This document shows positions 2,920 through 35,826 of a DNA stretch of 36,425 nt, piece by piece. How positions within the stretch are numbered: position 1 is the stretch's first letter; each line of letters starts with the position of its first letter. The notes under the pieces were generated by a model. It did not search any database, was not told where the DNA came from, and saw nothing but the letters and a program-made list of their open reading frames with translations. This DNA is from Klebsiella pneumoniae (GTDB lineage Bacteria; Pseudomonadota; Gammaproteobacteria; Ga0077536). A program made the translations under genes and the position numbers. The stretch spans positions 1 to 36,425 of the forward strand of contig CAMATU010000014.1 in the NCBI GenBank assembly GCA_945861225.1. Reading direction: 5' to 3'.

Positions 2920-3878
2920 TGCATTTTGTGATTTTGGGCGCCGGCGCACTCGGCAGCATTCTCGCCGCGCACCTAACGCGCGCCGGTCACCAGGTGGAAC
3001 TGATTGCGCGCGGTGCGCGCGCTGCACTACTGGAGGAACGCGGCGTGCACATTCGCGGCCTGCAGTCCTTTGACGCGCGTTGCGACATCGTGCGTGACGC
3101 AGCTCGCTTGGTCGATGCAGATGTCTTCATCAACACAGTCAAGACTTACGACAGCGTTGACGCGCTTAACAGCCTCCGAGCACTGCGGCCGCAGCAGGCA
3201 TTTTCGGTGCAAAACGGGGTGGTGAAAGAAGAAGAACTGCGCGCGCGTTTCGGCGCCGCTGCCGTGCTCGGTGCGATGGCAGATTTCAGTGGCGAATTGA
3301 CCGCGGATGGGGCTGCGCTGTTTACGCGAAATATCAATCTGCATCTTGGCGAACTGACTGGGGAACTGACAGTGCGCGTGGGCGCTATCGCGGAGGCGAT
3401 TCACGCCGCCGGCATCAATGCGCGCGCAGTCCCCAACATCCAAACGCTGGTGTGGTCGAAGTACACCGGCTGGCTGGCGCTGATGCTCCTGGCGGTGCTC
3501 ACCCGCCGCTTCACCGGCGATTATCTGCAGGATCCGGATGTCGCAAACGTAGTCGCCGAGATCACACGCGAGACTGCGCAATTGGCGCATGCTCGTGGTA
3601 TTCCGTTACTCGATATTTCGCCGGTGCCGGTGGTGCGCGTGCTTGCTGGCAGCGCGGAGGAGGCTGCCGCGATTGTGCAGGAAGTTGGGGTCCGCATGGC
3701 GGCACAGGCGCCAACGCATCGGCTATCGAGCCTGCAGGATCTGCTACGCGGACGTCGTCTCGAGCTCGAGGAAACGGTGGGTTATGCGTATCAAAAAGGC
3801 CTCGAACTCGGTTTGCCGATGCCCGTGCTGACGACGTGCTATCGCATCGCGGCGGCGATCAATCGCGGCTTGCAGTGA
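2919..3878 (+). CDS. panE: Ketopantoate reductase family protein (PanE/ApbA)
   Basis: The protein has 319 residues, the usual family length. It opens with a Rossmann dinucleotide-binding loop GAGALG at residues 7-12, followed by a family-typical AAHLTRAGH helix. The middle carries the conserved SVQNGV-type segment, and WSKY around residue 180 carries the lysine that acts as general acid in PanE. The C-terminal helical domain ends with a SSLQDLLRGR motif that in this family contacts the substrate carboxylate. Family members reduce 2-dehydropantoate to pantoate with NADPH for coenzyme A synthesis. Paralogues with other 2-oxo acid substrates are common, so the exact reaction is inferred. The ATG overlaps the stop of the upstream lipoprotein gene, which suggests translational coupling. 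Confidence 0.8.
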   Translation: MHFVILGAGALGSILAAHLTRAGHQVELIARGARAALLEERGVHIRGLQSFDARCDIVRDAARLVDADVFINTVKTYDSVDALNSLRALRPQQAFSVQNGVVKEEELRARFGAAAVLGAMADFSGELTADGAALFTRNINLHLGELTGELTVRVGAIAEAIHAAGINARAVPNIQTLVWSKYTGWLALMLLAVLTRRFTGDYLQDPDVANVVAEITRETAQLAHARGIPLLDISPVPVVRVLAGSAEEAAAIVQEVGVRMAAQAPTHRLSSLQDLLRGRRLELEETVGYAYQKGLELGLPMPVLTTCYRIAAAINRGLQ

Positions 3879-3948
3879 TTTTTTCGGGCCGGACCGGGAA
3901 GATTGCTTGTTCTCATGTGCGAAAGATGCGCTCGATAATGTCAGGGCC

Positions 3949-4674
3949 ATGACGATCCTCGCGTTCACTTCGGCGTCACTGGGACCCGCCCCGACAGGCG
4001 AGAAGTTGGCTGTCGATTACTTATTGCTGGCGTTGGTTTCAGTGTTACTGCATCTCTGCGCATGGTTGTGGTACCAGCAACCACGCGAGCGCCCAGTGCC
4101 AGTTGCGCCACCGCGGGTCTTGCAGCTCAGTTTGCAGAGACCAGCGCCCGTACCGGAGGTGCCACCACCACCGCTACCCGTAATCGAACCGCCACCGGCG
4201 GTCGCCGCGCCGCCGGTCCCAAAACCTACGCCGAAGCCAAAGCCTAAGCCAACGCTGAAACCCGCACCAAAGCTCAAGCCGGCGCAGCCGCCATTAACAC
4301 CGCCGGTGGCAGTCCCGCTCGTGCCGGCACCCACTGTCACGACGCCTGATCCCGCAGCGGTGTTGAAAGTACCCAGCGCAGAGCCTGTGATAGTCCCGGC
4401 GAGTACGCGGGCGACCTCACGCCGCAATCCAAAGCCCGATTATCCGACGCTCGCCAAGCGGCGTGGCTGGCAAGGCAAAGTGCTGCTTGAGGTTGAAGTG
4501 TTGAGTGATGGGACACCGGGCAAGATTCAGGTCGCAGCGTCGAGCGGCCGTGAGGTTCTGGATAACGCCGCCGTCAAGGCGGTCAAGCGTTGGCTGTTCG
4601 AACCTGCGCGTCGCGGTGACACGCCTGTCAGCACAACCCTGAACTTATCGATCGTCTTCAAGCTGGAACAATAA
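3949..4674 (+). CDS. tonB: Energy transducer TonB
   Basis: I chose the ATG at 3949 (241 residues). An in-frame TTG at 3907 would add 14 residues but lacks a convincing ribosome site. The order of parts is classic: a short cytoplasmic tail, one signal-anchor helix (about residues 20-42), a long Pro-rich periplasmic spacer (about 50-150) with PxPKPKPKP-type repeats, and a C-terminal TonB domain. The domain contains the YPTLAKRRGWQG motif, the VSSSGxxxLDxAA-like segment (AASSGREVLDNAA) and a VKRWLFEPAR strand. TonB passes proton-motive force from ExbB/ExbD to outer-membrane receptors for siderophores, heme or cobalamin. exbB and exbD follow directly, forming a complete motor set. No TonB-dependent receptor lies in the window, so the cargo is unknown. 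Confidence 0.92.
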   Translation: MTILAFTSASLGPAPTGEKLAVDYLLLALVSVLLHLCAWLWYQQPRERPVPVAPPRVLQLSLQRPAPVPEVPPPPLPVIEPPPAVAAPPVPKPTPKPKPKPTLKPAPKLKPAQPPLTPPVAVPLVPAPTVTTPDPAAVLKVPSAEPVIVPASTRATSRRNPKPDYPTLAKRRGWQGKVLLEVEVLSDGTPGKIQVAASSGREVLDNAAVKAVKRWLFEPARRGDTPVSTTLNLSIVFKLEQ

Positions 4675-4689
4675 CGGGAGTCATCTACA

Positions 4690-5349
4690 GTGGGGCTAAT
4701 TTTGGCGAGCAGTGGAGTTGTGGGTGTCACGCTCTATGTGCTGATTGGTTTTTCTATTGCGACCTGGACGGTGGTGCTGTGCAAGGTGATGCAACACTTC
4801 CGCGCCAGCTGGCGCAATCGGGGCTATATGCGCGCATTTTGGGCGGCACCTAATTTGCTCGGCGCAAAGACCCTGACCATTCAACGGGGACCGGCGGCCC
4901 GCATCTCACACGCTGGCTTCGAAGTGCTGGCGGAAAGCGAGACTGCGCGCGATCTCGCCCATTCAGGTGAGCGGCGCGAACTGCTGGAGCGTTGTCTGCG
5001 GCAACAATTGCAGAAGGAGCGGCGCGCGCTTGAAAGCGGGCTTGCGTTGTTGGCGAGTATCGGTAGCACGGCGCCATTTGTCGGGTTGTTCGGCACTGTG
5101 TGGGGCATCATGAATGCATTAAAGGACATTACCAAGGCAGGCAATGCGTCACTTGATGTGGTGGCGGGGCCCATTGGTGAAGCATTGATAGCGACCGCGA
5201 TTGGCATCGCGGTCGCAGTGCCGGCAGTGCTGGCCTACAACTTCTTCCTGCGCCGGATGAAAACGGTGGTCGCGCAGCTCGACGATTTTGCGACCGATTT
5301 TTTGAATTTGGCGGCGCGTAATGGTTTTCGTCTTGAACGCAGCACTTGA
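4690..5349 (+). CDS. exbB: Biopolymer transport protein ExbB (MotA/TolQ/ExbB proton channel)
   Basis: The gene starts with GTG at 4690, 15 bases after the tonB stop, with GGGAG about 9 bases upstream. The 219-residue protein has three transmembrane helices (about residues 6-32, 116-142 and 165-187), with the large cytoplasmic loop between the first two, as in ExbB. The MotA/TolQ/ExbB domain covers roughly residues 70-205 and contains the hallmark glycine-rich VGLFGTVWGIMNA stretch and the GPIGEALIATAIGI helix that lines the channel. It should form the pentameric proton channel around an ExbD dimer and energise TonB. Position between tonB and exbD argues for ExbB over TolQ, since no tolA, tolB or pal is present. 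Confidence 0.92.
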   Translation: MGLILASSGVVGVTLYVLIGFSIATWTVVLCKVMQHFRASWRNRGYMRAFWAAPNLLGAKTLTIQRGPAARISHAGFEVLAESETARDLAHSGERRELLERCLRQQLQKERRALESGLALLASIGSTAPFVGLFGTVWGIMNALKDITKAGNASLDVVAGPIGEALIATAIGIAVAVPAVLAYNFFLRRMKTVVAQLDDFATDFLNLAARNGFRLERST

Positions 5350-14480: not shown

Positions 14481-15290
14481 TCAACCAATTCTCTGCCGAC
14501 GCCGAACGGGCACCAACAATCCCGCAAGCCCCAACCCCAGCAACGAAAGCGTGGCTGGCTCTGGCACCGTCGGCGGCAGTTCAACACCACCTTCGATCGC
14601 ATCGTTATTGCAGGTCATGCCCCAGTGCAGAGACAGATATTCCCAATTCGCAAGTTCCTGCGCCAAACTTAGGTCAAGTTCGAAGCTGAGGCGCTTTTCA
14701 CCGGTATTTGTATTCCAGGTGCCGTTGCCGATCTCGGTTACCGTGGAGGGCTTGTTTACGGTGGACGGCGTGCGATCAACATGAACCGCCTGACCCTGAC
14801 GAACGATCGCACCTGGCTTGAAGAGTTCTTCACTCAGAATCAAGTTCTCGAGATTCGTGCCACCGAGTTTGTACAGCGTGAAAGTGCCATTAGTCGCGGT
14901 GCTCCACGGATCGTCGAAGCTTAAGCCGTAAGCCCAATGGGTGCCGTTGGTGGCATTGTCCAGTTTATGTCCGACGGTATTGTCGGGCGAAAAGGGAGTC
15001 CATGGGCCGCCCAGGAACAAGTCACCGTAGCCGATTCCCAGGCCGTTGGTGGTAAGTCCCGCGTATTTACCTACGTTCCCGACAAAATTTGTAAAGACAT
15101 CGATGTTGAGCTGACCGTTCTCGCGGATGACCTCGGCTCGCTGAGTGTCGAACCAATCTGGATTTCCGATCACATCTCCGTAGCCGTGATCGTTTGAACC
15201 AATATAGTTATCAAACAACGGCACAGCGTGCGTTTGCGCACTCAGCAGCATGGCGCCAACCGCCACTGCATGACCTAAAAATTTCTTCAT
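14481..15290 (-). CDS. PEP-CTERM sorting domain protein
   Basis: The protein has 269 residues. It starts with a Sec signal peptide (MKKFLGHAVAVGAMLLSAQTHA, cleavage after about residue 22). The middle is rich in Gly, Asn, Thr and Asp and lacks cysteine pairs, typical of secreted beta-rich surface proteins. The C-terminus carries the PEP-CTERM signal: VPEPATL, a hydrophobic helix (SLLGLGLAGLLV) and a basic end (RRRQR). Such proteins are exported, then processed and anchored by an exosortase (EpsH/XrtA type), often linked to exopolysaccharide. No exosortase gene is in the window. The gene has its own upstream gap and appears monocistronic. The function of the mature part is unknown. Confidence 0.88.
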   Translation of the reverse strand: MKKFLGHAVAVGAMLLSAQTHAVPLFDNYIGSNDHGYGDVIGNPDWFDTQRAEVIRENGQLNIDVFTNFVGNVGKYAGLTTNGLGIGYGDLFLGGPWTPFSPDNTVGHKLDNATNGTHWAYGLSFDDPWSTATNGTFTLYKLGGTNLENLILSEELFKPGAIVRQGQAVHVDRTPSTVNKPSTVTEIGNGTWNTNTGEKRLSFELDLSLAQELANWEYLSLHWGMTCNNDAIEGGVELPPTVPEPATLSLLGLGLAGLLVPVRRRQRIG

Positions 15291-30132: not shown

Positions 30133-30388
30133 CTACGGCGACGGCACCGTACCGCGGATTAATGCCTGCAGGAATTCATCGACCTCGTATTGCTTCTGGC
30201 CACGGAACTTCAATTGCGCGATCATGTGTCCGGCACTCATGACCAGATGGCCGCCAAGTAAGGCGGTTGACGTCGGCGACGATTTCACCCGCTGTTATCC
30301 CGGATAAAATGATGTCGCTGAATGCACCGATAATCCGATCTTGGAAGTCGACAATGAGCACGAAGGGGCCTGTCCGTGAGTCAAACAC
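30133..30388 (-). pseudogene. Remnant of a TetR-family regulator (C-terminal part, frameshifted)
   Basis: On the minus strand one frame reads FQDRIIGAFSDIILSGITAGEIVADVN, ending near 30265. The next frame then continues ALLGGHLVMSAGHMIAQLKF and finishes DEFLQALIRGTVPSP at a TAG (30133-30135). Removing one C near 30265 joins the two. The GITAGEI pattern followed by a hydrophobic helix pair and a final FLQALIRG helix is typical of the ligand-binding C-terminus of TetR regulators. The helix-turn-helix half is absent: further upstream the DNA becomes the start of the monooxygenase beta gene, which it overlaps. It may be what is left of the former divergent repressor of this operon. Confidence 0.6.
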
Positions 30389-31401
30389 CGTCCGGCAGCA
30401 AAATCATTCGCTTTCGCTATTTCGAGCCAGCCAAGCGGCGGGCGACGCAATACGAGGAAGTGACCCTTCACAGCCAATGGGATCCCAAAAATTTCGCAGC
30501 GCAGGGCTGGTTCAATCGCGACCAGAACGGCCGCGCGGCCTGGGACGATAGCTCGACCAAACTTAAAGCGCAGGACTGGTGGGCTTATCGCGATCCGGCG
30601 GAAGATTGGTTTCGGCCCTATGTCACGCGCCAGGTCGCCACCGGCAACGCCATTACGCAAGCGGTCGAGGGTGCCCAACGAGCACGCTTGTTCGAGGGTT
30701 TGTTACCCCGCTGGCAGGCCTTTCTTGCTACCCACTATGCGGCCTACCGGTTTCCGGAATATGGACTATTCATGGCCCTGAGTTATGCCCAGCGCGAGGC
30801 GCTGTCCGACGTCGTCGCGGGGCCGTTGCTGTTTCAGGGGCTGGAGAAAGACCGCCACTCGCAGGACATCGCGCTCTATGGCCTGGCGCTTGAGTCGGCA
30901 CTGCCGACCTATGACGAGGGCAATTGCAAGGCGCTGTGGCTGGAATCGCCGATGTGGCAACCAACCCGTAGAGTCATCGAATATCTGATGGCGTCGCGCG
31001 ATTGGGGCGAGATCAATTTCGTCATCAATCTGATCTACGAACCATTGTTCGCGACGCTGTTCAACCGCGAGCTCGTTCTGCGCTCGGCACCACGGCATGG
31101 TGACACGGTCGCTTCAGTCATCGCCGAAGGCGCAGAAAAAGACCGCGCACCGCGACGGGCGGCTGCCACTGCGCTGGCGCGTTTTCTACTTGCCGCGGAT
31201 GCAAGCAACGCGCAAGTAATGATCGCTTGGCTTGCCCATTGGATGCCCCAGGTGATGAGCGCTTGCGACGCCATCGCGCCGCTGTTCGACGCGCTTGACG
31301 TGCCTGTGCAGAGCTTCGCTACCGCGCGCCAGACTGTAGTTCGGGAATGGCACCAACTCTTGCGCGATAGTGGGCTCGATGCCAAGCAGGCGCAGATATG
31401 A
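30376..31401 (+). CDS. Soluble diiron monooxygenase, hydroxylase beta (small) subunit
   Basis: The protein has 341 residues from a GTG at 30376, with AGGGG 7 bases upstream. The pattern AQGWFNRDQNGRAAWDDSSTKLKAQDWWAYRDPAEDWFRPYVTRQ is characteristic of beta subunits of phenol, alkene and propane monooxygenases. The later NLIYEPLFATLFNREL segment is also typical. The beta subunit has the ferritin-like fold without iron ligands and forms the dimer core that holds the alpha subunits. It is the first gene of a four-gene monooxygenase operon; its stop overlaps the coupling-protein start (ATGA). The regulator remnant on the other strand overlaps its first codons. Gene order resembles amoA/etnA of group-4 alkene monooxygenases (from memory), but I do not assign a symbol. 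Confidence 0.88.
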   Translation: MSQTPSGSKIIRFRYFEPAKRRATQYEEVTLHSQWDPKNFAAQGWFNRDQNGRAAWDDSSTKLKAQDWWAYRDPAEDWFRPYVTRQVATGNAITQAVEGAQRARLFEGLLPRWQAFLATHYAAYRFPEYGLFMALSYAQREALSDVVAGPLLFQGLEKDRHSQDIALYGLALESALPTYDEGNCKALWLESPMWQPTRRVIEYLMASRDWGEINFVINLIYEPLFATLFNRELVLRSAPRHGDTVASVIAEGAEKDRAPRRAAATALARFLLAADASNAQVMIAWLAHWMPQVMSACDAIAPLFDALDVPVQSFATARQTVVREWHQLLRDSGLDAKQAQI

Positions 31402-31697
31402 CCGCCCGCGCGCTCACCGGGTCCACGCGCGTCAGCGTGAAACTGATGGCCGGCGAGGAGGCATCGGCCATTGCCGAAGCCGCCTGCATCGATAACCCCG
31501 ATGCTGTTTTAGAGAACCACGGCGCATACCTCACGGTCAGCAATGAACGGCGCCTCGACCTGAATATTGCGACGATTTCGGAAGCGCTCGGCCGCCCCTA
31601 TGACGTGTCCACTTTGCTCGTGGTATTCGTGAGTTATACGGGGCAGGTCGAAGTGAGTGAAAAATGCGTCTCCATCAAGGAAGCGCTTGCGGACTGA
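31398..31697 (+). CDS. Monooxygenase coupling (effector) protein, MmoB/DmpM family
   Basis: The protein has 99 residues, right for this family. It has no cofactor motif and shows the MmoB/DmpM pattern: an acidic helix, AEAACIDNPDAVLENHGAYLTVSNERRLDLNIATISEALGRPYDVSTLLVVF, where the ENHGAYLTV and LDLNIATISEALGR parts are conserved. It is needed to organise the diiron site and couple electron transfer to oxygen activation. Its ATG overlaps the beta stop, and the alpha gene begins 34 bases after its stop. Its presence between beta and alpha is part of the gene order that suggests a group-4 type enzyme. Confidence 0.9.
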   Translation: MTARALTGSTRVSVKLMAGEEASAIAEAACIDNPDAVLENHGAYLTVSNERRLDLNIATISEALGRPYDVSTLLVVFVSYTGQVEVSEKCVSIKEALAD

Positions 31698-31731
31698 ATG
31701 TTGGCAACACCTGGCAGCGAGACAAAATCTG

Positions 31732-33258
31732 ATGAGTGACGCTCTTTCCACTGCCTACGATCGCGTGAAATCGATCGATTGGGATCCAACCTACATTCGC
31801 GAAGACCAGAAACTCGTAGAGAAAACGCGTTTCCACCTTGCAGGACTGAAGCCGGTCGATCCCTTCAAGACTTTCGTTCGCGAGTACTTCCAAACGGAAC
31901 ATGAGAAAGACAATCGTCACTACGCGATCCTTGAAGCGTCGAGTCGCTTGAGCGACGCCGAACCCGACGCGCGGTGGATGGAGGGGATGAAGTTCGCCCT
32001 CTCCAATCTGCCCGGCATCGAGTACTCCGCAGCCCGCCAAATGGGGCGCATGGTGCGCAGTGTGGCACCCATGGAGCTGCGTCAAGGCTACATGATGCAG
32101 AGCCTGGATGAAGTCCGACATTCGCAGCTTGAAAGCAACACCTTGCGTCATCACATGCGCAGCTGGCGTGACCCTGCGGGCTTTGACATCGCGATGCGTG
32201 CGGCGGGAACCAGTGTCGGCGGCGGAATATTTCGCGCGATGCTCGAGGATTTGCTGACCTGCGACCCTGTCGAAACTTCGCTCGGCCTGCAGATGTTCGT
32301 CGAAACCGCCTATACCAATGTCTTCTTTGTCGGCTTGTCGACCGCTGCCGCGGCGCATGGCGACAAGATGATGGCCTCGACCATGCTGACCATTCAGTCG
32401 GACGAAGCGCGACATATGGCCAATGGCTGGGCGACCTTCGTGACCTTGCTGCAGGACGACCGCAATGTTCCCTTGGTTCAACAAGCGCTCGACAAATGGT
32501 CTTGGCGAATCCATACGAGCTTGAGCGTGGGCATTAATCTGTTTACGGACTACTTCGTCACTAAGCGACAAGAGTCAGCTAAAGAAATGAACATGCGCTG
32601 GGTGTTCGATGAGTTCTACGGTGGCTTCTATCAGAAGCTTGAAAAATACGGCATTGAGGCGCCTAAGCATCTGGAGAGAATGATTTCCGACCAGGATTAT
32701 CTTTCACACTCTGCTGCGGTGTACCTGTTCGGCGCGTGGCCCGTGTTCTACCACCGCTACGATGGCATGACCGCCGCCGACATGGAGTGGTTCGAGAAAA
32801 AATATCCTGGTTGGTACGCAAACTATGGCGGCTTCTGGGAAGCTTACAATCGCTGCACCGAGCCTGCCGATCAGACGTTGGTTCTGAAAGAGCTCGGTGG
32901 ACTGCCCAATTTCTGTCAGGTCTGTCAGCTGCCGACCATCTTCCCATTGCCAAACGCTAACTCGGGGCGTTCGTGTATGCACGCCGGCAAGCTGTTTACG
33001 TTCTGCTCAGAGGGGTGTCAGGAGATTTTTTTCAAGGAGCCGATTCGCTATCAGGGCTTCCAAACCTTCCTCGATCGTTACGATGGTTTTGAGTTATCAG
33101 AAGTCACGCGCGATATGGGCTTCGTACGGGAAGACGGCAAGACACTCATCGCCCAACCGGCGCTTGAGCCCAAGCGCATGTGGACCTTGGAGGACATCAA
33201 GCGCTGCGACTACGTGGTGCAGAGACCACCGCCGCCACCACTTGTGGAGGTGGCGTGA
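31732..33258 (+). CDS. Soluble diiron monooxygenase, hydroxylase alpha (large) subunit
   Basis: I chose the ATG at 31732 (508 residues); an upstream in-frame start at 31657 would lie inside the coupling-protein gene. All six diiron ligands are present at canonical spacing: E97, E127 and H130 (DEVRH), E191, E225 and H228 (DEARH). The 30-residue gap from first to second Glu and 34 from third to fourth equal those of methane monooxygenase. The C-terminus has a Cys-rich YHS-like stretch, FCQVC near residue 405 and FCSEGC about 30 residues later, as in propane and alkene monooxygenases. This subunit activates oxygen to hydroxylate or epoxidise a hydrocarbon. A length near 500 fits groups 3 to 6. 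The stop overlaps the reductase start (GTGA). Confidence 0.93.
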   Translation: MSDALSTAYDRVKSIDWDPTYIREDQKLVEKTRFHLAGLKPVDPFKTFVREYFQTEHEKDNRHYAILEASSRLSDAEPDARWMEGMKFALSNLPGIEYSAARQMGRMVRSVAPMELRQGYMMQSLDEVRHSQLESNTLRHHMRSWRDPAGFDIAMRAAGTSVGGGIFRAMLEDLLTCDPVETSLGLQMFVETAYTNVFFVGLSTAAAAHGDKMMASTMLTIQSDEARHMANGWATFVTLLQDDRNVPLVQQALDKWSWRIHTSLSVGINLFTDYFVTKRQESAKEMNMRWVFDEFYGGFYQKLEKYGIEAPKHLERMISDQDYLSHSAAVYLFGAWPVFYHRYDGMTAADMEWFEKKYPGWYANYGGFWEAYNRCTEPADQTLVLKELGGLPNFCQVCQLPTIFPLPNANSGRSCMHAGKLFTFCSEGCQEIFFKEPIRYQGFQTFLDRYDGFELSEVTRDMGFVREDGKTLIAQPALEPKRMWTLEDIKRCDYVVQRPPPPPLVEVA

Positions 33259-34283
33259 ACCACGTCGTTACGCTCGCACCGTTTGGCGTTCAATTCGCAT
33301 GCGGCGAAGAGGAAACCATCCTCTCGGCGGCGCTCCGCCAGGGGATTGGGCTGCGTTACGGATGCAAGCATGGCGCCTGCGGCAGCTGTAAAGCGCGCAT
33401 CACAGAAGGCGAAGTGGACTTAGTGCAGGCCTCTGGTTTCGCGCTGATGCAGTACGAACGAGACGCCGGCATGACACTCCTGTGTTCAGCCTATCCGCTG
33501 GAAGACATTGTTGTGCAACTTGAGCACTACGACGAGGCCGAACTGAGCACAGCGCGCCCCATCGTGGAATTTTGTTGTCGCATCGCTGCGCGCAACAAAC
33601 TGTCGCCGGATATCTGGCAACTGGTGCTCGATATTGACAGCGACTCGCCGCTGCATTTCGACGCCGGCCAGTTCGTCGAAGTGAATGTGCCCGGGTCGCG
33701 CGAGTGGCGTGCCTACTCAATGGCCAATGCCCCTGGCGACGGCCGCAGCATCGAACTCCTTATCAAGGAGATCCCGGACGGACGGTTTTCAGGCGCCTTG
33801 GCACAGGTTCTCGCCGCAGGAGACCGCCTTGCAGTGCGTGGTCCTTTCGGCCAGTTCAAGGTACACGAGGGCAGCGCGCCGATGGTGATGGTCGCCGGCG
33901 GTTCAGGCATGGCACCGATCTTGTCGATGCTAAGGTCGCTCAGCGAACAGCGAAGCAAGCGTGAGATTGTTTTCTATTATGGAATTCGCACCGCGAACGA
34001 TCTAATCTGCAGCGAGGAAATAGCCACCATCGCGGCGGGCCTGTCGGCCTTCAAGTATGTCCCCACGGTTGCTGCGCCCGGCGCTAGCGGTGCATGGAAG
34101 GGTGAGACCGGTCTGGTGACGGAGGTGATCGATAGGCTGAGCGGTAATCTGCGTGGTGGCGACGCGTATCTGTGTGGGCCGCCCGGAATGATCGATGCGG
34201 TGATCGAAGTGCTTAAAGGCAAAGGGATGTTCGGCTCGCGCATCCGGTTCGATAAATTCGTCAGTACGGCATCATGCATCTGA
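33255..34283 (+). CDS. Monooxygenase reductase component ([2Fe-2S], FAD, NADH)
   Basis: I chose the GTG at 33255 overlapping the alpha stop (342 residues). The N-terminal ferredoxin domain has C37, C42, C45 (CKHGACGSC) and C77 (LLCSAY). The FAD domain carries RAYSMANAPGD and the preceding DAGQFVEVNVPG. The NAD domain carries VAGGSGMAPILSML and ends CGPPGMIDAV. It moves electrons from NADH through FAD and the iron-sulfur cluster to the diiron hydroxylase. It completes a four-component enzyme: no gamma subunit and no separate Rieske ferredoxin are present, excluding groups 1 to 3 of the soluble diiron monooxygenases (phenol, toluene and isoprene types, and sMMO). Confidence 0.93.
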   Translation: MNHVVTLAPFGVQFACGEEETILSAALRQGIGLRYGCKHGACGSCKARITEGEVDLVQASGFALMQYERDAGMTLLCSAYPLEDIVVQLEHYDEAELSTARPIVEFCCRIAARNKLSPDIWQLVLDIDSDSPLHFDAGQFVEVNVPGSREWRAYSMANAPGDGRSIELLIKEIPDGRFSGALAQVLAAGDRLAVRGPFGQFKVHEGSAPMVMVAGGSGMAPILSMLRSLSEQRSKREIVFYYGIRTANDLICSEEIATIAAGLSAFKYVPTVAAPGASGAWKGETGLVTEVIDRLSGNLRGGDAYLCGPPGMIDAVIEVLKGKGMFGSRIRFDKFVSTASCI

Positions 34284-34417: not shown

Positions 34418-35317
34418 ATGAAAAAACCATTCAAGTACATTCCTAAGGACGCCAAGGAAATCGTAATCCGGAAATTCTCGTTTGAATTTCCACCGGATCT
34501 CAATCCTGTCTGGGTTCCGCACAACCCGGTGCGCTCGCATCTGTTCAATGGACTGTCGTTAACGATGCCCTATTTGGAGCCATATCTAATCAAGTCCACG
34601 CAATCTGCCATGAAGTTTGTGGATCACGAGGACCTATTGGCAGACATGCGCGGCTTCAACGGACAGGAAGCGCGACATTATCAATGCCATCGACGCTTGA
34701 ACGAACTGCTAAAGGCTAACGGGTATCCAGAACTCGGCGAGGTGGAGCAGCGTATGGCGAAGTCCTTCGAACGCTTGTCGCAGATGCGCTTGAGGACCCA
34801 ACTGGCCTACAACGCTGGATTTGAGTGCATGACGAATGGCTTTACGCATTGGTTAATCACTAAACGCCATGCCCTTTTCAAGAACGCGTCGCCGCACGTC
34901 ACGTCGTTCTGGCTGATGCACATGGTCGAGGAAACAGAACACAAAACGGTCGCCTTCGATGTCTACATGGCCTATTCGGGGAAGTATTGGCCACGGGCTT
35001 TCGGCGTGTTGCACGGAACTTTTCATTTATGGGGCTGGGGAATCGTTGGAATGTTCACGGCGCTCAGAAAGGACAATCTGCTTAAACGACCAGCGACGTG
35101 GATGAGGATCCTCAAAGAAATTGGAGCGGCCCTGTATAACGTCGGTCCCTTTATGTTGCGAGCGCTCGTGCCGGGATACAACCCGCGACAGGAACATGAT
35201 CCGGCATGGTACAAAGAGTGGATTTCCGGCCATGGAACACTGGAGGGCGACGCTCCGTTGCCACTGGTCGATACGGCGAACCCCGAAATGCCAGTGCCTT
35301 TCAGCAAGGTTGCCTGA
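34418..35317 (+). CDS. Predicted metal-dependent hydrolase family protein (PF10118-like), possible ferritin-like diiron protein
   Basis: The protein has 299 residues, with GGAG 10 bases before the ATG. It resembles the family called 'predicted metal-dependent hydrolase' (PF10118, from memory): FNGQEARHYQCHRRLNELLKANGY and the EETEHKTVAFDVY motif. I see a pattern that fits two E plus ExxH pairs: E54, E84-x2-H87, E136, E172-x2-H175. The spacings of 30 and 36 resemble those of ferritin-like diiron enzymes, including the alpha subunit encoded just upstream (30 and 34). A hydrophobic stretch (HGTFHLWGWGIVGMFTAL) follows around 200-217 and may be a membrane-associated helix. It lies 134 bases after the reductase and 41 before the isomerase-like gene. 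The function is unproven. Confidence 0.75.
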   Translation: MKKPFKYIPKDAKEIVIRKFSFEFPPDLNPVWVPHNPVRSHLFNGLSLTMPYLEPYLIKSTQSAMKFVDHEDLLADMRGFNGQEARHYQCHRRLNELLKANGYPELGEVEQRMAKSFERLSQMRLRTQLAYNAGFECMTNGFTHWLITKRHALFKNASPHVTSFWLMHMVEETEHKTVAFDVYMAYSGKYWPRAFGVLHGTFHLWGWGIVGMFTALRKDNLLKRPATWMRILKEIGAALYNVGPFMLRALVPGYNPRQEHDPAWYKEWISGHGTLEGDAPLPLVDTANPEMPVPFSKVA

Positions 35318-35358
35318 GGCGAATCGGTTCACGATCTATAAAAATGAGGAGTGATGTT

Positions 35359-35826
35359 ATGGAGCGGCTACAACAAATAATGATAGGGCACGGGCTGCTG
35401 GTGATTCTGGCAGCGATGTTCGCGGGTTTTATGCTGATGTTTAACCTTCTGGGCGGAATGGAAGTATGGCCTGGGACTATCCTTGAAGTGCCTATGTATG
35501 GAACCACAGCGGGCTGGGTCCGCGCGCATACGGGCGGCGCGCTGAATGGCGTATTGGTGATTATCGTGGGCTTGGCGCTACCTAAATTAAAGCTCACTGA
35601 GTTTGCGCAGAAATTCACTGCTTATGGATTGATATATTGTGCGTGGACCTTCACGATTTTTTATTGGCTCGGGAACGCGTCTACCAATCGGGGGCTTTCG
35701 ATCGGGCCGAGCGCCTTAGGCCAGCCGGATTTGATCGGCCTGATAGCATTTCTGCCGGGCCTGCCGAGCGTGTTTATTGTTGTTGCCGTTTTGATCGTCT
35801 GCGCAAAAAGCATTTTTTCACGCTAA
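35359..35826 (+). CDS. Styrene oxide isomerase-like membrane protein (StyC family)
   Basis: I chose the ATG at 35359 (155 residues) with GGAG 7 bases upstream. Four hydrophobic helices span most of the chain. It lines up without gaps over its first 120 or so residues with my memory of Pseudomonas StyC: GHGLL, NLLGGMEVWPGTILE, GWVRAHTGGALNGVLVI, FYW and NRGLSIGP. H57 matches the heme b ligand (H58 of StyC), N63 matches N64, and Y102 matches Y103. D95 of StyC is replaced by C94. StyC isomerises styrene oxide to phenylacetaldehyde using heme iron as a Lewis acid. Following an alkene-monooxygenase-like operon, it could convert the epoxide product to an aldehyde. The gene is AT-rich (21 G/C of 60 bases in 35581-35640). 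Confidence 0.82.
   Translation: MERLQQIMIGHGLLVILAAMFAGFMLMFNLLGGMEVWPGTILEVPMYGTTAGWVRAHTGGALNGVLVIIVGLALPKLKLTEFAQKFTAYGLIYCAWTFTIFYWLGNASTNRGLSIGPSALGQPDLIGLIAFLPGLPSVFIVVAVLIVCAKSIFSR

Follow-up and report, generated by a model that had tools for sequence, protein, structure and literature searches.

A candidate heme epoxide isomerase gene paired with a PF10118 gene encoding a predicted diiron protein

Genes at the locus

The window analyzed here, a stretch of 36,425 nucleotides, carries near its 3′ end a forward-strand gene (35359..35826) for a 155-residue homolog of StyC, the heme-dependent styrene oxide isomerase (SOI). The protein has four predicted membrane helices, a histidine (H57) at the heme-ligand position, and five further residues that recur in the analysis below: N63, C94, F98, Y102 and R111. 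Its ATG start codon at 35359 lies 7 nt downstream of a Shine-Dalgarno-like GAGGAG on the same strand (35346..35351). We preferred this start over a longer in-frame alternative from 35206 because the longer frame overlaps the gene upstream, and because homologs share the Met encoded at 35359 in an alignment of relatives. Positioned directly 5′ of the SOI-like gene, also on the forward strand, is a gene for a 299-residue protein of Pfam family PF10118 ('Metal_hydrol'; 34418..35317), a predicted ferritin-like diiron protein with putative ligands E54, E84xxH87, E136 and E172xxH175. When we compared the window with a 92% relative (locus L054) by the NG86 method, the SOI-like gene showed a dN of 0.038 and a dS of 1.0, and is thus under strong purifying selection. 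The resulting dN/dS of ~0.04, together with a value of ~0.05 for the PF10118 gene in the same comparison, indicates that both genes are maintained.

Upstream of this pair, positions 30376-34283 of the forward strand hold a complete soluble diiron monooxygenase (SDIMO) operon, in the order hydroxylase beta subunit (30376..31401), effector of the MmoB/DmpM type (31398..31697), hydroxylase alpha subunit (31732..33258, from an inferred ATG at 31732) and 2Fe-2S/FAD/NAD reductase (33255..34283, from an inferred GTG start). The same order is found in the ethene-oxidizer plasmid loci of Nocardioides JS614 and Mycolicibacterium NBB4, and it is the gene order used as a criterion for group 4 SDIMOs. The alpha subunit shares 40% identity with EtnC and 38.5% with the PH-06 alpha subunit, and it occupies a deep branch of its own; the fork that would unite it with EtnC and AmoC lacked resolution, and the tree gave no firm support for placing the operon in group 4. 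Elsewhere in the window, on the reverse strand (14481-15290), a gene encodes an exported protein with a C-terminal tail resembling a sorting signal (VPEPATLSLLGLGLAGLLVPVRRR). On the naming of the source genomes, we note that L054 and L111 come from metagenome-assembled genomes titled Klebsiella pneumoniae, and that their counterparts (G024 and G016) fall within the window's own family, such that the titles look wrong.

Fold, active-site residues and clade of the SOI-like protein

A phmmer comparison with StyC (PDB 8pnu) aligned residues 5-142 of the window protein without gaps (E 9e-25), a match far above chance by sequence. The only PDB sequence matches were two styrene oxide isomerase entries, and the second StyC-fold entry, 30tw, gave an identical register from the His to the Tyr. 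Against the NCBIfam StyC model (NF045734), the protein scored 123.7 bits (E 6e-36, positions 1-140 of 147), below the equivalog cutoff of 150 bits, whereas a StyA-linked StyC from the same genus scored 242 bits. An AlphaFold2 model of the window protein (pLDDT 89.7) retrieved 8pnu in a Foldseek search (TM 0.88, E 8e-11) and no other significant match. On the combined strength of the full-length sequence match, the modeled fold and an axial His in register, the protein is a member of the SOI superfamily.

The gapless alignment places H57, N63, C94, Y102 and R111 on StyC residues H58, N64, D95, Y103 and R112. The initial annotation had proposed a StyC homolog that retains the His, Asn and Tyr and carries Cys at the Asp position, and this description was borne out in full; a displacement of the His or Tyr in a proper alignment was looked for and did not occur. 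Three features went beyond that annotation at the residue level, namely the replacement of N99 by F98, the replacement of T20 by A19, and the retention of R112 as R111. In the SOI of Pseudomonas sp. VLB120, ferric heme b is held by H58, which is locked by T20, and N64, D95, N99 and Y103 form a hydrogen-bond network on the substrate side; the N64A and D95A mutants are impaired without being dead, and N99A and Y103A are inactive (PMC11374702). In the Rhodococcus opacus SOI, H57A lacks both heme and activity, D94A is still active, and R111 appears to stabilize the heme (PMC12502698). Judged by the published D95A and D94A mutants, Asp95 is the least telling of the network sites.

Conservation among relatives follows a similar division. 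An alignment of 47 relatives shows no variation at H57, N63, Y102 or R111, and the heme-ligand His is unchanged across 107 sequences of the superfamily. StyC position 95, by comparison, is occupied by C, I, V, A or T in close relatives, and by C, I, V or A within the window's own clade; Asp occurs there in just 7 of the 107 superfamily sequences, all StyC-type, and among nine StyA-linked SOIs, three carry Ala (L184, L187 and L193). The exchange of Asp for Cys, which the initial annotation had singled out as the telling change, did not hold up as such, and with the position this variable among relatives and StyA-linked SOIs alike, we discarded the idea that Cys94 is a catalytic substitution. 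At position 99, Phe is found in every one of the 47 relatives except the three members of the L105 group, which retain Asn, and by this alignment the change that defines the clade is N99 to Phe98 rather than Cys94. The accompanying suggestion of an altered substrate or selectivity stays plausible in that the pocket differs from that of StyC, but its marker is the conserved Phe98 and not the Asp position. With both N99 (Phe98) and D95 (Cys94) gone from the hydrogen-bond network, the substrate is probably not styrene; with Phe98 in place of an essential Asn, catalysis by the window protein is not assured.

A tree of 89 SOI-like proteins set the window clade (support 100/95), together with its sister, the L105 group (100/93), apart from the branch of StyA-linked SOIs (99/94), so that the window protein belongs by sequence to a separate, well-supported clade. 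This placement bears on the possibility that the gene encodes a conventional styrene oxide isomerase with a part in the organism's breakdown of styrene. Homology and the three conserved active-site positions would fit such a role, yet the clade lies outside the StyA-linked SOIs and the protein falls short of the StyC cutoff. Moreover, StyA, which does adjoin true StyC loci, was found in no window-clade locus, and one relative genome (G004) holds both a StyA-linked StyC and a window-type protein. We therefore regard an ordinary styrene oxide isomerase as very unlikely.

Two further StyC or StyC-like sequences were encountered along the way. The window genome itself carries, near the end of another contig (C198; L132:140-316), a fragment of ~59 residues with 44% identity to a true StyC, near which neither StyA nor StyB was found. 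On plasmid pR1CP1 of Rhodococcus opacus 1CP (L207:2480-4501), a StyC gene is preceded by one annotated as a nitric oxide synthase oxygenase.

The PF10118 partner and its conservation

The strongest functional clue, also absent from the initial annotation, is the neighboring PF10118 gene. In a survey of 59 public loci from a genome collection, a PF10118 gene lay immediately 5′ of the SOI-like gene on the same strand in 50, as it does in the window, with gaps between -8 and 92 nt except at one locus, where a frameshift gives an apparent 297. Nine loci lacked an adjacent copy: three of these have a PF10118 gene of 59-64% identity elsewhere in the genome, one has just 110 bases of upstream sequence, and the nine showed no pattern of a substitute oxygenase. 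The window genome contains two PF10118 copies in 4.5 Mb, which puts chance adjacency at about one in a thousand per locus; the observed pairing is not expected by chance. No third gene of a conserved module emerged from the 59 loci, the next commonest neighbors being an ABC ATPase and an SDR (11/59 each), and no reductase gene accompanied the pair. The second PF10118 copy of the window genome, also of the module type, lies on contig C53 (L212:6300-7304) without an adjoining SOI-like gene.

The partner is a clear family member by profile (196 bits against a gathering cutoff of 33.2; 41 of 41 aligned members match), and no PDB entry matched it by sequence. Its model is an all-helical bundle (pLDDT 92.8), for which the top 50 rows of a structural realignment comprised ribonucleotide reductase R2, CmlI, AurF, R2-like oxidase and methane monooxygenase, with Z of 10.8-12.1. 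Because the Foldseek match was weak (best E 0.11), and because unrelated helical bundles can reach a Z near 12, the best value obtained, by chance, the ligand motif carries weight. E54, E84, H87, E136, E172 and H175 are invariant in 49 aligned PF10118 sequences, non-paired members included; in the predicted structure they lie on helices of a four-helix bundle, with E172 and H175 at and just beyond the end of helix 159-174, and follow the canonical diiron order E, ExxH, E, ExxH. Together, these features point to a ferritin-like diiron protein, and we infer that the partner is a candidate oxygenase.

The family name implies something else, a metal-dependent hydrolase that would open or process the epoxide or its product. 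That name speaks for such a role, while the modeled fold and the set of putative ligands point to a ferritin-like diiron protein. The literature searched, which comprised papers outside subscription and preprint sources, yielded no experimental support for the name and nothing useful on the function of PF10118 or COG3687. We give the hydrolase reading very little credence. On an Acinetobacter plasmid (L121:356-4843), a PF10118 gene has oxygenase-type surroundings: genes for a cytochrome P450, an FAD oxidoreductase and a 2Fe-2S protein lie nearby.

Deeper lineages extend the association and complicate it. Here too SOI-like genes adjoin a PF10118 gene, which precedes them in some lineages and follows them in others; where it follows, the stop and start codons overlap. 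The PF10118 and SOI trees are discordant: PF10118 proteins from the L105 loci cluster with those linked to a third SOI group, and window-clade PF10118 clusters with the PF10118 of the deep group, unlike the pairing in the SOI tree. This discordance suggests that the two families were brought together more than once. In the deep group (L053, L125, L126, L128, L129 and L166-L176), Tyr103 is lost and Asn64 sometimes too, whereas the heme His is retained, as the Arg usually is, and pairing with PF10118 persists; a search for plasmid relatives of this group found none. Since the deepest PF10118-linked proteins lack Tyr103, linkage to PF10118 alone does not imply an isomerase.

These same proteins feed the main rival to an isomerase role, in which the SOI-like protein would serve as a heme membrane anchor or redox partner of the diiron protein. 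Such a role could accommodate a heme His conserved without Tyr103, the lack of a co-travelling reductase gene, and the loss from the window protein of the N99 that StyC requires. It accounts poorly, by contrast, for the invariance of Asn63 and Tyr102 in the window clade, as would be expected if the distal pocket handles a substrate oxygen, and the StyC heme, with its single axial His, acts as a Lewis acid and not in electron transfer (PMC11374702). Taking both sides into account, we consider an anchor or redox partner unlikely, and favor an isomerase.

Proposed pathway and comparison with known systems

We propose that the window encodes a heme epoxide isomerase that works together with a PF10118 diiron oxygenase, which would replace the flavin-dependent StyAB. 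Most likely, the diiron oxygenase would turn an alkene into an epoxide, the counterpart of the role of StyAB for StyC. In the SOI-fold membrane protein, His57 would be the ligand of a ferric heme b, Asn63 and Tyr102 would position the epoxide oxygen from the substrate side, and the epoxide would be isomerized on the ferric heme to an aldehyde or ketone by Meinwald rearrangement; the substrate is probably one other than styrene. We hold this coupled pathway as our leading explanation with a little short of even confidence. Weighing against it are the replacement of N99 by Phe, the weak Foldseek E value of the partner, the solo second PF10118 copy in the genome, and the lack of a co-travelling reductase.

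The neighboring SDIMO raises the alternative that the steps run in another order, with a different oxygenase, for example the adjacent SDIMO, making the epoxide, the SOI-like protein converting it to an aldehyde, and the PF10118 protein acting on that aldehyde. The SDIMO operon does stand just upstream of the pair in the window and in L054, with a gene order like that seen at the alkene monooxygenase loci in Mycolicibacterium NBB4 and in Nocardioides JS614. In addition, the spacing of the putative PF10118 ligands (30, 52 and 36 residues) resembles that of aldehyde-deformylating oxygenase. However, eight further genomes of the family carry SDIMO orthologs (77-94%), and in the six whose surroundings were read, the operon stands without an adjoining PF10118/SOI-like pair; operon and pair adjoin each other in the window and L054 alone, and the PF10118 gene stays with its partner where the SDIMO lies elsewhere. 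We accordingly rejected the SDIMO as a conserved partner and judge the reordered pathway distinctly unlikely, while noting that the SDIMO may supply epoxide in this lineage from outside the conserved module. In L054, an acyl-CoA ligase gene absent from the window (3756-5312) lies between the SDIMO reductase and PF10118 genes.

Beyond this locus, the coupled pathway we favor would extend to a widespread, undescribed module of two metalloenzymes, in which a ferritin-like PF10118 diiron oxygenase would epoxidize an alkene, leaving isomerization of the product to a heme b protein of the SOI fold whose substrate pocket has been rebuilt (Phe for N99), the two having been re-paired more than once in Proteobacteria. 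We advance this generalization tentatively, as a possibility somewhat short of an even call. The new points are the signature of the clade and its pairing with PF10118; no description of an SOI with a diiron partner, or of PF10118/SOI-like pairing, was found in the literature searched, again papers outside subscription and preprint sources. To our knowledge, heme-catalyzed Meinwald rearrangement has so far been tied to styrene degradation and to flavoprotein epoxidases of the StyAB type. Were the proposal true, the same heme chemistry would act on other alkenes in many uncultured Proteobacteria of the sea and of fresh water, where a diiron enzyme would provide the epoxide. The name of PF10118 would then be wrong, and naturally occurring isomerases with Phe in place of N99 could be used to ask which SOI pocket residues are really required. 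Co-expression of the two genes offers a direct test.

Placed beside StyC of Pseudomonas sp. VLB120 (PDB 8pnu and 8pnv; NF045734), the window protein shares the four-helix membrane fold, length and register, along with the heme-ligand His, Asn64, Tyr103 and Arg112. It differs in its identity of ~34-39%, in the three exchanges N99 to F, D95 to C and T20 to A, in a score under the equivalog cutoff, and in having PF10118 instead of StyA/StyB as its neighbor. That neighbor is a member of the family described as 'predicted metal-dependent hydrolase', yet is predicted to be a ferritin-like diiron protein and not a hydrolase. With the AurF and CmlI N-oxygenases, ribonucleotide reductase R2 and the methane monooxygenase hydroxylase, it has the E-ExxH-E-ExxH ligand order and, by prediction, probably the fold in common at ~10% identity; any shared function is putative. 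The SDIMO operon, finally, resembles etnABCD of Nocardioides JS614 and Mycolicibacterium NBB4 in its order of beta, effector, alpha and reductase genes and in its alpha subunit (39-40% identity), whereas the etn clusters follow a gene of the cobalamin-independent methionine-synthase-II family, which we take to be EtnE, and stand without a PF10118/SOI-like pair.
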